Of a DNA stretch of 40,311 nt, positions 4,451 through 27,869 are shown piece by piece; within the stretch, counting starts at the first letter, position 1; each line of letters starts with the position of its first letter. The translations under genes and the position numbers were made by a program. The notes beneath the pieces were generated by a model, which did no database searches, was not told where the DNA came from, and saw only the letters and a list, made by a program, of their open reading frames with translations. The stretch spans positions 1 to 40,311 of the forward strand of contig CANQMT010000025.1 of assembly GCA_947625055.1 (NCBI GenBank), read 5' to 3'. This DNA is from an uncultured Monoglobus sp. (GTDB lineage: Bacteria > Bacillota > Clostridia > Monoglobales > Monoglobaceae).

Positions 4451-4456
4451 AAATAT

Positions 4457-4594
4457 TTGTTGAAATTATTCCGCAGACAGCAGGGGGCGGCCGCAGAAAT
4501 CAGCGGCATCAGCCGTAAGTCCTGCCGAGGATGATATATTACATTAATTTTATCGCGTAATTATATCCCTCGTATGTTTGCGAGGGATTTTTTA
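4457..4594 (+). promoter_or_regulatory. L10 leader with transcription attenuator
   Basis: The conserved core of the L10-leader family is visible: GCAGACAGCAGG at about 4473-4484 and CCTGCCGAGG at 4521-4530, which pair around variable stems. Downstream, ATCCCTCG (4565-4572) and CGAGGGAT (4581-4588) form a perfect 8-bp stem followed by TTTTTT, a clear intrinsic terminator before rplJ. Known L10 leaders bind the L10(L12)4 complex, so excess L10-L12 should reduce rplJ-rplL expression. Here terminator control is the most likely mode. Confidence 0.9.
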
Positions 4595-4613
4595 CGGAAG
4601 GAGGAATAGATCA

Positions 4614-21682: not shown

Positions 21683-22105
21683 TTAAAGCGTTGAAAAATT
21701 ATTTTGCCTATAAATGTCATGCAAATATTCTTTTGTTATTTTATATACTTTTTCTGCGTTTTCAACTTGTTTTGCAGCTTCGTCTTTTTTTGCAATATAG
21801 AAATCATCATAATCGCTTTTGCTTCTTATTAAACTTGCGCCGGTTATGATATCCGAAACCTCGCGGCCGAAAATTCGGGTCTTGACATAGTGTTCCCTGA
21901 AATATGAAATAACGCCGGAGTGTTTTTTGAAGTCAACCTCATCAAGCGCCAATACTGCCCGCATAGCGTGAAAAATGCTGTAATACGCTCTGTTGTTAGC
22001 GGTTTTGTATTCTTCGATTTCAAGGTTTTTGCGCGCGCTGCTTAAAAACTCTTTTGCTCTTTCCAGCCTGTATTTTGAAAGAATAATACTTTTTTCGTTA
22101 GGCAA
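21683..22105 (-). CDS. HEPN-domain protein, putative RNase toxin of a HEPN-MNT pair
   Basis: 140 residues, mostly helical. The motif RAYYSIFH (R39 to H46, an Rx6H) matches the catalytic RX4-6H of HEPN ribonucleases. It overlaps the MNT gene by 8 bp (22098-22105), which is the typical translational coupling of HEPN-MNT toxin-antitoxin pairs. In characterised pairs the MNT partner AMPylates a tyrosine near the Rx4-6H motif and thereby inactivates the toxin; here tyrosines Y41-Y42 lie within the motif. HEPN proteins can also be non-toxic nucleotidyltransferase partners. Confidence 0.82.
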   Translation of the reverse strand: MPNEKSIILSKYRLERAKEFLSSARKNLEIEEYKTANNRAYYSIFHAMRAVLALDEVDFKKHSGVISYFREHYVKTRIFGREVSDIITGASLIRSKSDYDDFYIAKKDEAAKQVENAEKVYKITKEYLHDIYRQNNFSTL

Positions 22106-22445
22106 CTATCCTCACTCCTTCGGTGTCAACATTTTTATAAAAAGGCAGGTCGATTTTCCATTCATTAAAGAATTGGGAGCTGATAACGATCGGAGATAAA
22201 GTTACGGAATAATCAAATTCTTCATAAATATCCCCTAGTATTTTTATTATGCGGTCATTATAAGTGTTTTCGATATCATGCGGTATATCCGCTATTATTG
22301 CAATGTCAACATCGGAAGTCTCCTCAAAGTCTCCGCGCGCATAAGAGCCGAAAAGAATGATCTCTCTCAAGCTGCTGCCGAACAAAATTTTTATTTTTTC
22401 CGCAAAAACGCGGAGTATATTATCAAGTTCAGATCTTGAACACAT
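22098..22445 (-). CDS. MNT-type minimal nucleotidyltransferase, putative antitoxin
   Basis: 115 residues. The DNA polymerase beta-like signature is complete: G33-S34 followed by D45-V-D47 (GSYARGDFEETSDVDIAI). This is the minimal nucleotidyltransferase that partners HEPN proteins and can act as an antitoxin by AMPylation. First gene of the pair, with GAAAGGGATG upstream. A weak promoter (TTGCCG, 16 bp, TATTAT) lies in the 87 bp between it and fabZ. Confidence 0.85.
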   Translation of the reverse strand: MCSRSELDNILRVFAEKIKILFGSSLREIILFGSYARGDFEETSDVDIAIIADIPHDIENTYNDRIIKILGDIYEEFDYSVTLSPIVISSQFFNEWKIDLPFYKNVDTEGVRIVA

Positions 22446-23218: not shown

Positions 23219-23250
23219 AAAAGCTTGAAACGAAAGTTTCAAGCTTTTTT
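23219..23250. terminator. Bidirectional terminator shared by tRNA-Tyr and the relE-like gene
   Basis: Stem AAGCTTGAAAC / GTTTCAAGCTT with GAAA loop (23221-23246), A-run on the left and T-run on the right, so it works on both strands. The relE-like stop codon begins at its right edge. Confidence 0.92.
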
Positions 23251-23512
23251 ATATGCCGAGTACTTCTTTGTGGTGCCCGACTTCCAACAACAGAATAATA
23301 ACGCCGTTTTCATACCGCCATAAAATCCTGATGTTCATATTAACGCTCATTTCAAACACATCATCAAAACCCCGGACTTTTTTGGTTCGCAGAGACGGAT
23401 AAAACGGATCTTTAATTAATAATTTAAGCTTATTCGCCACCGCGGTCCGTTCGGCGCGCGATAAGCTTTTCAGGTGCTTTTCAAAGGTCTTTGTATATTT
23501 CAGCTTATACAT
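23249..23512 (-). CDS. RelE/ParE-family toxin (mRNA interferase-like)
   Basis: 87 residues with the compact RelE fold pattern: YTKTFEKHLKSLSRAERTAV N-terminal helices, then MNIRILWRYENGVIILLLEVGHHKEVLGI strands. The conserved basic Arg in the RILW strand and the terminal HHKE are typical of the YafQ/RelE branch. Directly downstream of an AbrB-type antitoxin, one base apart, so co-translated. Expected to cleave ribosome-bound mRNA; unproven. Confidence 0.85.
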   Translation of the reverse strand: MYKLKYTKTFEKHLKSLSRAERTAVANKLKLLIKDPFYPSLRTKKVRGFDDVFEMSVNMNIRILWRYENGVIILLLEVGHHKEVLGI

Positions 23513-23513
23513 T

Positions 23514-23771
23514 TTAAGCGTCTATTCCCATATCCGCGAACATTTCCTCTACGCTTTCAAAAGCGGTTTGTTTCGAGGTCTCTTTCTCGGCGTCTTTGAC
23601 AAGCTTGGCTATTTTGGCGATTTTATTTTTGGGATACACAACGACCGGACATAAGAATATGCCGCCGTCTTTTTCGGTAATGTCAAATTTATCGCCCTCG
23701 CTGATGCCGAGCTTTTTTATAATATCGGCGGGAATTGTGACCTGTGAGCGTCCTCGTATTTCTGCCAGCAT
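23514..23771 (-). CDS. AbrB/MazE-type antitoxin
   Basis: 85 residues. The N-terminal swapped-hairpin domain (about 1-45) has RGRSQVTIPADIIKKLGISEGD, the standard SpoVT/AbrB core. The C-terminal half is charged and probably disordered, fitting a toxin-binding tail. Transcribed before the RelE-like gene from the promoter and palindrome at 23790-23845, most likely autorepressed. Start follows AAAGGGTG. Confidence 0.87.
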   Translation of the reverse strand: MLAEIRGRSQVTIPADIIKKLGISEGDKFDITEKDGGIFLCPVVVYPKNKIAKIAKLVKDAEKETSKQTAFESVEEMFADMGIDA

Positions 23772-25104: not shown

Positions 25105-25234
25105 CAAAAACTTTTCCGCTTTTTTCGACATTGTTTGCAAAAGCAAATAAAACCCGAAAAGAGCTGCTCTAAGATTGACAAAATCGTTTGGAGCGGTATA
25201 ATATAAGAAAAAGATTGAAACGGCGGGAATTTGT

Positions 25235-25612
25235 GTGAAACTTGTAGGAAAAATCAACAGAGAAATATATAAATGCATTACCGAAGATATAACCACCGAC
25301 GAGGTTATCATTACCGACGAGCGCGTCGAGCATATAGAAGATAATCATCCCGGGCATTTTAAAAATTATGGCGTTTATTTGCAAGAAATTGTAGAGAGAC
25401 CCGATTATATTTTTTCGGGTAATCGAGTTAAAACGGCGCTTGTTTTAAAGCATGTATCCGAGATTGACGAAAAATTTAAAACTGTAATTCGATTGATTAC
25501 TTCAAGTGATGACAAGACATATAAAAATTCAGTCATAACATTTATGAAAATTGACGAAAAAGAGTGGAACAGACTTAAAAAGAATAAAAAAGTCCTTTAC
25601 AAATCAGAATAA
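25235..25612 (+). CDS. PBECR-like nuclease-fold protein
   Basis: 125 residues, GTG start with only a weak ribosome site. The pattern VIITDERVEHIEDNHPGHF, then IVERPDYIF, LVLKHV, TVIRLITSSDD and a C-terminal KNSVITFMKIDEKEW resembles the phage-Barnase-EndoU-ColicinE5/D-RelE (PBECR) nuclease group, which occurs as toxin tips and as free small proteins. Histidines in EHIEDNHPGH, the LVLK lysine and the KNS/T strand are candidate active-site residues. No immunity gene is recognisable beside it; a structured RNA starts from its 3' end. Family call is from motif recall. Confidence 0.6.
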   Translation: MKLVGKINREIYKCITEDITTDEVIITDERVEHIEDNHPGHFKNYGVYLQEIVERPDYIFSGNRVKTALVLKHVSEIDEKFKTVIRLITSSDDKTYKNSVITFMKIDEKEWNRLKKNKKVLYKSE

Positions 25613-25631
25613 ATATGTTAATATAATAATA

Positions 25632-25781
25632 TAATAAAGTTGCTGTTTGAGGTGGAGGATTACGTCCGGTCCACACGCCGATGGTATGACAAGGGTGAAA
25701 ACCCTGAGAGATGCAGGAGAATGGGACGCCTGCCAAACAGTAATATATAGACCGCTTTGAGAAATCAAAGCGGTTTTTTAC
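25632..25781 (+). ncRNA. Unidentified compact structured RNA with terminator
   Basis: A promoter TTTACA (25596-25601), 17 bp, TAATAT (25619-25624) lies in the end of the PBECR-like gene. A 10-bp closing helix (25640-25649 with 25734-25743, one wobble) encloses three hairpins: GTGGA-GGA / TCC-GG-TCCAC with a TTACG loop (25652-25674); AGGGT-GAAA-ACCCT, a GNRA tetraloop (25692-25705); and GCAGG / CCTGC (25713-25733) whose loop has GGACG, complementary to CGTCC at 25663-25667 in the first hairpin. A strong terminator follows (ACCGCTTTGA-GAAA-TCAAAGCGGT, then TTTTTT). No gene follows within 300 bases in the same direction, so it is probably a free RNA. I could not match it to a known riboswitch. 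Confidence 0.65.
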
Positions 25782-26111: not shown

Positions 26112-27869
26112 TTGAGCAGGAAAAAAAGTTCCGGCGGCAGCTTTGTTAAGGGCGCGCTGATACTGGGCATAGCAAGTTTAATTGTTAAAATTATAGGCGC
26201 TTTCTTTAAGATACCCATGACCAACCTCATAAAGGACGACGGCATGGGGTTGTTCAACGGCGGATATCAGATATACACATTTATGTTTATCGTGGCGACC
26301 GCGGGCTTCCCGGTGGCTATATCAAAAATGGTTTCCGAGAGTCTGGCGCGCGAGGATGAGCGCGACTCAAAGCGGGTCTTTCAGACCGCGTTCTCGCTGC
26401 TGTTCGTCACCGGAATAGCCGGCAGTGTTATTCTGTTCACGTTCGCGGGCCCGTTCGCGAGGGCGGTCGGCATGCCGGACGCGGAACTCGGCATCAAGGC
26501 GATCTCGCCCGCGATATTCTTCGTGTCCATGGCTTCGGCGCTGCGCGGATATTTTCAGGGCAGACAGAACATGTATCCCACCGCGTTTTCCGAGGTGATC
26601 GAGTCGACCGGAAAGCTGGTCATCGGTCTGTTGGCCGCGGGCTTCTTTATGAATATGGCGGTAACCCCCGATATGCCGAATCTGGTGGATTTCGCGGGCA
26701 GGGTCATCAGCTCGGCCCACCTGAGAACCGTTTATGCCTCGGCGGGCGCTATCTTGGGAGTGACAGCCGGAACCTTCCTGTCGGCGACCCTGCTTATCTG
26801 CATTTACATATTCACCTCGACCGCCGCCAAGCGGCGCGCCGAAAAGCTTGCGCCGTCAGTGACAGCGGCGAAAAAGCTTAGACCCAAAAAGACAATTCTC
26901 AAAGAGCTGGTGCTCATCGCGATCCCGATAACCATAGGCGCGTCGGTTTCAAGTCTCACGACCCTGATCGATATGTCAACGATCAGCCGCCGCCTGGTGG
27001 TCAATCCGTCCGTGTTTGACCGCTACGCCTTTATGTTCGAGGGCAGCGCCGAGTTTATGCAAAAGGTGGCCCAGGAGGGCTGGAACGCGGCGCAGATCAA
27101 CGTCCAGAAGGCCACGTCGCTGTACGGAATGTACACCGGCAAGGCGCTGACCATGTTTAATCTGCCGCTGACACTCGTGGTCTCGCTGGGAACCAGTGTT
27201 GTCCCCGCGATCTCGGGTTCGTTGGCAAAGGGGAATAAAATACAGGCAAGGAACATAACCGAAAGCGCGATCCGTCTGGCGCTGCTGTTCGGCGCTCCCT
27301 GCGCGATAGGGATGTCGGCGCTGTCGGGCGGGGTGCTCAATCTGCTGTTCAGCACCAACAACGCGGCGAATGTTCTGGCGATCCTGTCGATCGCGATCAT
27401 CCCGGTATCGGTGGTTCAGGTCACAAACGCCATGCTCCAGGCATACGGCAAGGTTTATTATCCGGTCATCAATATGCTGATAGGCGGCGCGGCCAAGGTG
27501 ATATTCAACTATTTCATGATCCCCGTCCTCGGAATCGAGGGCGCGCCGATGGGAACGTTCCTGTGCTATCTGATAATCGCGGTGATCAACACCGTTCAGA
27601 TCGTGCGCCTCTCCGATATGAAATTTAAGCCGATCGACACAATAGTAAAACCGCTTATCGCCGCCTTGGTAATGGGCGCGGTCGGATTTTTTGTCGCGGG
27701 AGCTCTGCCTTCGTCGCGGCTTATGACATTGATAGAGATCATGATCTGCGGCGTGGTTTACCTGGTCATGATATTCGTTGTCCGCGCCGTTAAGCGCGAG
27801 GATCTGATGAATCTGCCCAAGGGCGAGAAAATCGCCGGCCTGCTCGCGCGGTTTAAACTGATAAAATAG
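26112..27869 (+). CDS. SpoVB/MurJ-type MOP-superfamily flippase
   Basis: 585 residues with about 14 hydrophobic segments. It begins SGGSFVKGALILGIASLIVKIIGAFFKIPMTNLI, a typical start of the SpoVB group (YabM/SpoVB), and contains AFSLLFVTGIAGSV and LRGYFQGRQNMYPTAFSEV blocks. These proteins flip lipid-linked wall precursors or polysaccharide units. In Bacillus the order yabM-mazG(yabN)-yabO(rqcP) is the same as here. Start is TTG at 26112 with AAGGAG eight bases upstream; the nearby ATG (26088) is followed by a stop. Confidence 0.88.
   Translation: MSRKKSSGGSFVKGALILGIASLIVKIIGAFFKIPMTNLIKDDGMGLFNGGYQIYTFMFIVATAGFPVAISKMVSESLAREDERDSKRVFQTAFSLLFVTGIAGSVILFTFAGPFARAVGMPDAELGIKAISPAIFFVSMASALRGYFQGRQNMYPTAFSEVIESTGKLVIGLLAAGFFMNMAVTPDMPNLVDFAGRVISSAHLRTVYASAGAILGVTAGTFLSATLLICIYIFTSTAAKRRAEKLAPSVTAAKKLRPKKTILKELVLIAIPITIGASVSSLTTLIDMSTISRRLVVNPSVFDRYAFMFEGSAEFMQKVAQEGWNAAQINVQKATSLYGMYTGKALTMFNLPLTLVVSLGTSVVPAISGSLAKGNKIQARNITESAIRLALLFGAPCAIGMSALSGGVLNLLFSTNNAANVLAILSIAIIPVSVVQVTNAMLQAYGKVYYPVINMLIGGAAKVIFNYFMIPVLGIEGAPMGTFLCYLIIAVINTVQIVRLSDMKFKPIDTIVKPLIAALVMGAVGFFVAGALPSSRLMTLIEIMICGVVYLVMIFVVRAVKREDLMNLPKGEKIAGLLARFKLIK

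Follow-up and report, generated by a model that had tools for sequence, protein, structure and literature searches.

A skipping-rope RNA follows a PBECR2 nuclease gene in Monoglobus and related loci and is proposed to be its antitoxin

The window analyzed here is a 40,311-nucleotide (nt) stretch of DNA from an uncultured Monoglobus sp. (GenBank assembly GCA_947625055.1, contig CANQMT010000025.1, positions 1 to 40,311 of the forward strand). It contains a short gene for a nuclease of the PBECR2 family and, directly behind it, a compact structured RNA of the skipping-rope class. The same RNA follows the nuclease in nearly all of 112 related loci, and we propose that it is an antitoxin that would neutralize the nuclease. 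The features of this module are listed below, with loci designated L and genomes G in the text that follows.

25175-25202, + strand: promoter of the nuclease gene, TTGACA-N16-TATAAT (12 of 12 consensus matches)
25235-25612, + strand: PBECR2 nuclease gene, proposed toxin, 125 amino acids (aa), GTG start (PF18810 match)
25596-25624, + strand: promoter of the RNA, TTTACA-N17-TAATAT, with the -35 box inside the 3' end of the nuclease gene
25642-25741, + strand: skipping-rope RNA core, proposed antitoxin or immunity RNA (RF02924 match; covariation)
25642-25649 / 25734-25741, + strand: P1 closing helix (8 of 8 pairs change on both sides; 98.8% of alignment cells paired)
25653-25656 / 25670-25673, + strand: helix P2
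25677-25679 / 25683-25685, + strand: short helix P3a
25692-25695 / 25702-25705, + strand: helix P3, with a GAAA loop
25713-25717 / 25729-25733, + strand: helix P4
25663-25667, + strand: kissing loop 1, CGTCC, pairing with GGACG at 25724-25728
25724-25728, + strand: kissing loop 2, GGACG, pairing with CGTCC at 25663-25667
25749-25776, + strand: intrinsic terminator, 12 pairs followed by a T run (folding compared with shuffles)

The RNA had been described in a sequence-only reading of this DNA, which suggested a covariance search against Rfam. When the whole window was searched, the RNA scored 46.5 bits (E 4.5e-8) with the RF02924 ("skipping-rope") model, whose gathering score is 36.7, and a short search returned the same match at E 6.1e-10. 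Because this score is above the curated threshold of a known class, the earlier statement that the RNA was not recognized does not hold. The closing helix, the hairpins, and the covarying pseudoknot of the class are all present in the window RNA. The 150-nt stretch that includes the terminator has a predicted folding energy of -54.8 kcal/mol compared with a mean of -33.1 for shuffled sequences (z -6.3, with 0 of 200 shuffles as good), and the terminator hairpin alone has a z of -7.2. The description of a compact three-hairpin RNA with kissing-loop potential and a strong terminator was therefore sound, with the core now placed slightly more tightly and the loops found to covary. The preference for a small RNA, probably trans-acting, over a riboswitch also agrees with our results. 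We found no evidence for the ligand-binding aptamer that had been raised as a possibility, and the next gene on the same strand (polysaccharide/MurJ-family, at 26112) begins 370 nt downstream and is not consistently found beside the RNA.

The skipping-rope class was reportedly discovered by Weinberg et al. in 2017. In the literature that we searched, which excluded this 2017 discovery paper, no function or nuclease partner of the class was found, and Rfam types RF02924 only as a small RNA. Its pseudoknot has already been drawn with covariation support in Figure 3 of the Rfam 14 paper (PMC7779021), the class was used as a training set in DecoyFinder, and its accession also appears in a machine-learning paper.

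The gene upstream of the RNA had been called PBECR-like, and its 125-aa product matches PBECR2 (PF18810) with 50.1 bits against a cut-off of 27.1 (E 3.8e-13), as well as PBECR3 (PF18812) with 30.5 bits against a cut-off of 30. Residue conservation was assessed in 102 distinct sequences out of 113 nucleases, whose pairwise identity falls as low as 34% (median 56%). His-33 is conserved in 101 of 102 sequences, Asn-98 and Ser-99 in all 102, and position 102 is Thr or Ser in all 102. An AlphaFold model of the window nuclease (mean predicted local distance difference test score, or pLDDT, 95.8) places His-33 in a helix that spans residues 28-37. Among the structural matches listed for this model, the highest-scoring are two toxin entries (7vd7 and BrnT 3u97), followed by an entry for contact-dependent inhibition and by RelE-type toxins (Z 7.9, 7.4, 5.9, and 4.7), all below a Z of 8, the level under which a shared fold is uncertain. 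A ToxN-like fold was absent among the structural matches listed, Foldseek alone returned no match to the model at E<=0.001, and a sequence search of solved structures gave only two chance-level matches. Just 1 of 11 PBECR proteins matched a PADLOC defense model (DrmMI, E 2e-4), and 0 of 3 proteins matched an NCBIfam model. The active-site His and C-terminal Ser/Thr described for BECR-type nucleases (PMC5512222) are present in the window nuclease. In contrast to our loci, no RNA partner appears in the excerpted text of that source, where suggested targets include mRNA or CRISPR RNA. The PBECR2 product is predicted to cleave RNA, with its predicted active site intact.

To define how constant the pairing is, 112 PBECR2 loci (79 genome contigs and 33 viral contigs) were gathered by protein similarity to nine nucleases, and the RNAs in them were located with a DNA profile built from 47 RNAs. 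An RNA lies 32-73 nt past the nuclease match in 109 of these 112 loci, and the gap between the two is an identical 29 nt in 10 loci. At two of the exceptions (L156 and L216), 6 and 0 nt of contig remain behind the nuclease; at the third (L191, 4369-6640), a DDE transposase gene separates the pair, and the RNA and its promoter are found at +2271. The 3' end of the L191 nuclease gene is repeated beyond the transposon, re-creating the RNA promoter. Since the nine queries were themselves RNA-linked and the loci share descent, these counts represent one association kept over large divergence rather than 110 independent events. A cultured bacterium that carries the module is Ruminococcus bicirculans 80/3 (L165). 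A second RNA follows the first within 200 nt behind one nuclease in 9 of the 112 loci. In these tandem loci (L133, L155, L159, L160, L166, L182, L197, L199, and L209), the RNA sub-types sometimes differ.

The association was also counted in genomes. Among 60 relatives, 25 RNAs were present in 12 genomes, and each of the 11 PBECR2 matches, one of which has an internal stop, had an RNA immediately behind it on the same strand. The 398 genomes of the phylum contain 26 distinct places with a PBECR2 or PBECR3 match, and 19 of them have an RNA. The RNA is adjacent in 18 of these 19; in G429 the two are 1.9 kb apart, with a transposase-like gene between them and a truncated nuclease. Of the seven places without an RNA, five belong to frames that span 693-2356 aa and one to a frame of 191 aa; the last, in a frame of 127 aa, scores below the curated cut-off. 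RNA counts across the phylum are lower bounds because strict filters missed the RNA in G395, which scores 40.5 bits. In G334, an intact PBECR3 gene and its RNA converge from opposite strands, so the RNA cannot act in cis, at least there. As a control, 0 of 32 Phage_min_cap2 matches in the 398 phylum genomes were near an RNA, which rules out that the RNA is a general companion of phage head genes. The two-way counts of nuclease and RNA likewise rule out a chance neighbor. A search of annotated phages returned one weak match, in a record without annotation, and plasmids gave no match. Overall, a standalone nuclease that lacks the RNA is almost unknown.

The promoter of the RNA overlaps the 3' end of the nuclease gene. 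After removal of duplicates, 97 distinct loci remained. In all 97, the best promoter preceding the RNA has a 17-nt spacer, with TTTACA as the -35 box in 94 and TATAAT as the -10 box in 65. Mismatches to consensus number at most three in 97 of 97 loci and at most two in 95, a level reached by about 4% of composition shuffles. The -35 box begins within the nuclease frame in 93 of the 97 loci, where it is encoded by Leu-Tyr near the C terminus. Residue 121 uses the codon CTT in 99 of 102 nucleases and Tyr-122 uses TAC in 101 of 102, whereas Tyr-12, Tyr-48, and Tyr-58 are mostly TAT. This codon bias and the embedded -35 box show that promoter function constrains the sequence at the 3' end of the nuclease gene. 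A lenient test found a terminator-like hairpin after the RNA in 98 of 102 loci, compared with 130 of 306 shuffles. The RNA had earlier been taken to be transcribed from the end of the nuclease gene; it has its own promoter at 25596-25624, however, and the nuclease is its conserved partner rather than a chance neighbor.

Conservation of the RNA structure was analyzed in a MAFFT alignment of 71 RNAs of the sub-type found in the window (70 distinct), made up of 69 that were kept, the window RNA, and L178; 24 unparsed RNA copies and 16 RNAs of other sub-types or lengths were excluded. Its six helices are preserved among these homologs, with 97.4% of alignment cells able to pair. Both sides change in 19 of 27 pairs compared with 10.0 in shuffles, a value that 0 of 500 shuffles reached, and none of the five measures used was reached by any of the 500. 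Because MAFFT placed a gap inside kissing loop 1, the kissing pairs were counted without gaps, and only three of them entered the helix covariation test. At positions 4-5 of the kissing loops, pairing is possible in 17 of the 18 distinct combinations of loops, whereas 2000 shuffles gave a mean of 5.0 and never more than 12; the exception is a copy at L137. The GNRA loop of the middle hairpin is common (52 of 69 sequences) and not fixed. In four species the RNA is identical over 100 nt, whereas their nucleases differ, with a synonymous divergence (dS) of 0.15-0.55 and a nonsynonymous to synonymous ratio (dN/dS) of 0.09-0.15. The covariation indicates that selection acts on the RNA structure.

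The two partners are not lost with equal frequency. The chromosomal site of the module in the window lies between a PAP2 gene and a MurJ-family gene, and in 12 genomes of the genus this site holds the nuclease and RNA in 5, the RNA alone in 3, neither in 4, and the nuclease alone in 0. A promoter is directly ahead of the RNA in each of the three RNA-alone genomes (L008, L013, and L017). When the flanks of the RNAs in the relatives were scanned, 11 of 25 had a nuclease (one with an internal stop) and 14 did not. The phylum RNAs (L026-L054) are accompanied by a full nuclease in 12 of 29 cases, a broken one in 5, and none in 12, two of which are near a contig end; the broken nuclease at L035 was counted from the phylum-wide nuclease search and not from the flank scan. 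Viral contigs found by RNA pattern, a search in which the nuclease was not used, overlap partly with those found by nuclease; 40 were found, 4 had no upstream sequence, and the 36 usable ones contain a full nuclease in 24, a remnant in 2, and none in 10. G004, G015, G016, and G017 have RNAs and no PBECR2 or PBECR3 match, and G009 has an RNA and only part of a PBECR match, inside a 979-aa frame (these five genomes are 79-98% complete).

Many of the nucleases are part of larger phage proteins. The nuclease forms the end of a frame of at least 200 codons in 46 of the 112 loci, and all 9 fusions that were scanned are Phage_Mu_F or Phage_min_cap2 proteins that end in PBECR2. The window nuclease stands alone and has no Phage Mu F or minor capsid N terminus. 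A protein encoded downstream was considered as a candidate immunity factor. The largest downstream protein cluster occurs in only 14 of 91 loci and is of a phage structural type by reading of its sequences; it is the RNA that recurs instead. Since no protein recurs in more than 14 of 91 loci, none could serve as a general immunity gene.

At some loci the RNA follows a different domain. L244 and L257 have it behind phage Mu F-type proteins that end in DUF6883, and at L273 it follows a Mu F-type protein that is identical to that of L244 over the part compared. The RNA at these loci may be a relic, or skipping-rope RNA may also answer DUF6883 as a further toxin domain. At L015 (G009), L019 (G002), and L270 (a viral contig), the RNA lies behind a Pfam-unmatched domain containing HTHPG, together with an open reading frame of about 91-111 aa. 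L015 and L019 share their chromosomal neighborhood and nearly the same RNA with a PBECR2 locus, L014. The toxin cassette was apparently swapped and the RNA left behind at L015, L019, L270, L244, and L257.

We consider it likely that the RNA is an antitoxin or immunity RNA that neutralizes the nuclease, in a type III-like system with reversed gene order and other toxin and RNA families. The locus would then be a two-part module of toxin and antidote. The upstream gene would produce a PBECR2 nuclease that cuts RNA; in many phages, where this domain ends a MuF or minor capsid protein, it may enter cells with the DNA. Transcription from the RNA's own promoter, which reaches into the nuclease gene, to the terminator would supply the RNA in excess, and this three-hairpin kissing-loop RNA would bind the nuclease and hold it inactive. 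Loss of the nuclease would be harmless, and an RNA that remains may still guard against incoming nucleases. Loss of the RNA next to an intact nuclease would be lethal, and hence not seen.

Several points weigh against this proposal. The gene order is opposite to that of type III systems, and most loci have one RNA rather than a repeat array. The structural matches of the nuclease are below Z 8, and Foldseek gave none at its cut-off. Common descent means that the 112 loci are not independent events, and the nucleases that went into the query alignment were RNA-linked. Toxicity and RNA binding are properties that we infer. Many RNAs have no recognizable nuclease nearby (14 of 25 in relatives and 12 of 29 in the phylum), and the RNA may therefore act with a further partner as well. 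The RNA-only genomes aside, an activating or guiding RNA would account equally well for conservation of the pair. If the RNA were such an activator, guide, or essential cofactor, forming an active ribonucleoprotein effector with the nuclease, a standalone nuclease would be expected almost never to occur without it, as is seen. However, the RNA persists with an intact promoter and structure where the nuclease is absent (three species at one site), G004, G015, G016, and G017 hold RNAs without PBECR2 or PBECR3 and G009 retains only part of one, and 10 of 36 usable viral contigs carry the RNA without the nuclease, so we regard this explanation as unlikely.

The frequency of RNA-only loci would fit an RNA that has a phage or host job of its own, as a regulatory small RNA or decoy, and that hitchhikes with the nuclease on the same mobile cassette; the phage RNAs that follow DUF6883 (L244 and L257) or unmatched C-terminal domains (L015, L019, and L270) point the same way. 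Hitchhiking of this kind does not explain why 10 loci share an identical 29-nt gap, why the RNA promoter extends into the nuclease gene, or why the nuclease is almost never found without the RNA, and the 0 of 32 Phage_min_cap2 matches near an RNA also speak against it; we judge it improbable. Even less probable, in our estimate, is that the RNA controls the nuclease mRNA rather than the protein, as a type I antisense RNA, an attenuator, or an element of the 3' untranslated region. Its position directly downstream would allow it to belong to a read-through transcript. However, shuffled RNA is predicted to pair with the nuclease mRNA just as well (in 117 of 200 shuffles, which speaks against a type I antisense RNA), the loops able to pair are engaged in a covarying internal kissing interaction, and the RNA is on the opposite strand in G334.

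The proposed antitoxin RNA can be compared with three sets of systems, as far as the excerpts of the cited papers describe them. Type III systems (ToxIN, CptIN, and TenpIN) are defined by an RNase toxin and a trans-acting pseudoknotted RNA made in excess (PMC5086642), and the module proposed here would likewise combine an RNase toxin with a trans-acting pseudoknotted RNA. In type III systems the RNA, with its short repeats, precedes the toxin, a terminator lies between them, and one promoter serves both, whereas here the toxin precedes an RNA of ∼100 nt with its own promoter, the window has one RNA and no repeat array, and the toxin and RNA families differ. The kissing loops make this a pseudoknotted RNA, although the type III examples are of the H type. 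We have not filed the module as type III because of its gene order and lack of a repeat array, and because binding of the nuclease by the RNA is presumed.

The closest precedent is AbiF-RCd22 of Clostridioides difficile, in which an Rfam motif (abiF, RF03085) was shown to form part of an RNA antitoxin, type III-like in kind, that binds a prophage toxin (PMC12373285). That RNA differs from the one studied here in being upstream of the toxin and co-transcribed with it, and in the families of both RNA and protein. The fused relatives of the window nuclease resemble MuF proteins, polymorphic toxins of temperate phages (PMC5576092), in having the toxin domain at the C terminus of a phage head protein. 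Immunity to MuF toxins is expected from small proteins encoded downstream, whereas the sole constant downstream element here is an RNA.

A broader version of the proposal, to which we give slightly less than an even chance, is that skipping-rope RNAs provide RNA-based immunity against nucleases that phage capsids bring into cells. By keeping the RNA, phages and their lysogens would be spared by the capsid-borne nuclease, whether incoming or newly made, and bacteria and rival phages would keep or collect orphan and tandem RNAs as antidotes. If this is the case, it would be, to our knowledge, the first example of an RNA rather than a protein as the immunity partner of a polymorphic toxin delivered by virions. 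The antitoxin proposal itself offers a concrete function for an Rfam class that has none in the literature searched, and gives the nuclease family a partner. If it is right, RNA antidotes would act not only on toxins of the ToxN and AbiF families but also on RelE-like nucleases and capsid-fused toxins, and orphan RNAs might be a record of earlier encounters with phages.

Two further toxin-antitoxin-like pairs lie near the module in the window, and conflict modules seem to cluster in this region. These pairs and one further RNA element are as follows.

21683-22445, - strand: nucleotidyltransferase and HEPN pair, toxin-antitoxin-like
23249-23771, - strand: MazE-like and YafQ/ParE-like pair, the toxin below the curated cut-off
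4453-4602, + strand: ribosomal protein L10 leader (66.8 bits)

At two other loci, the skipping-rope RNA is found directly behind genes of similar kinds: HEPN and nucleotidyltransferase genes at L032 (G139) and a weakly HicA-like open reading frame at L039 (G117).
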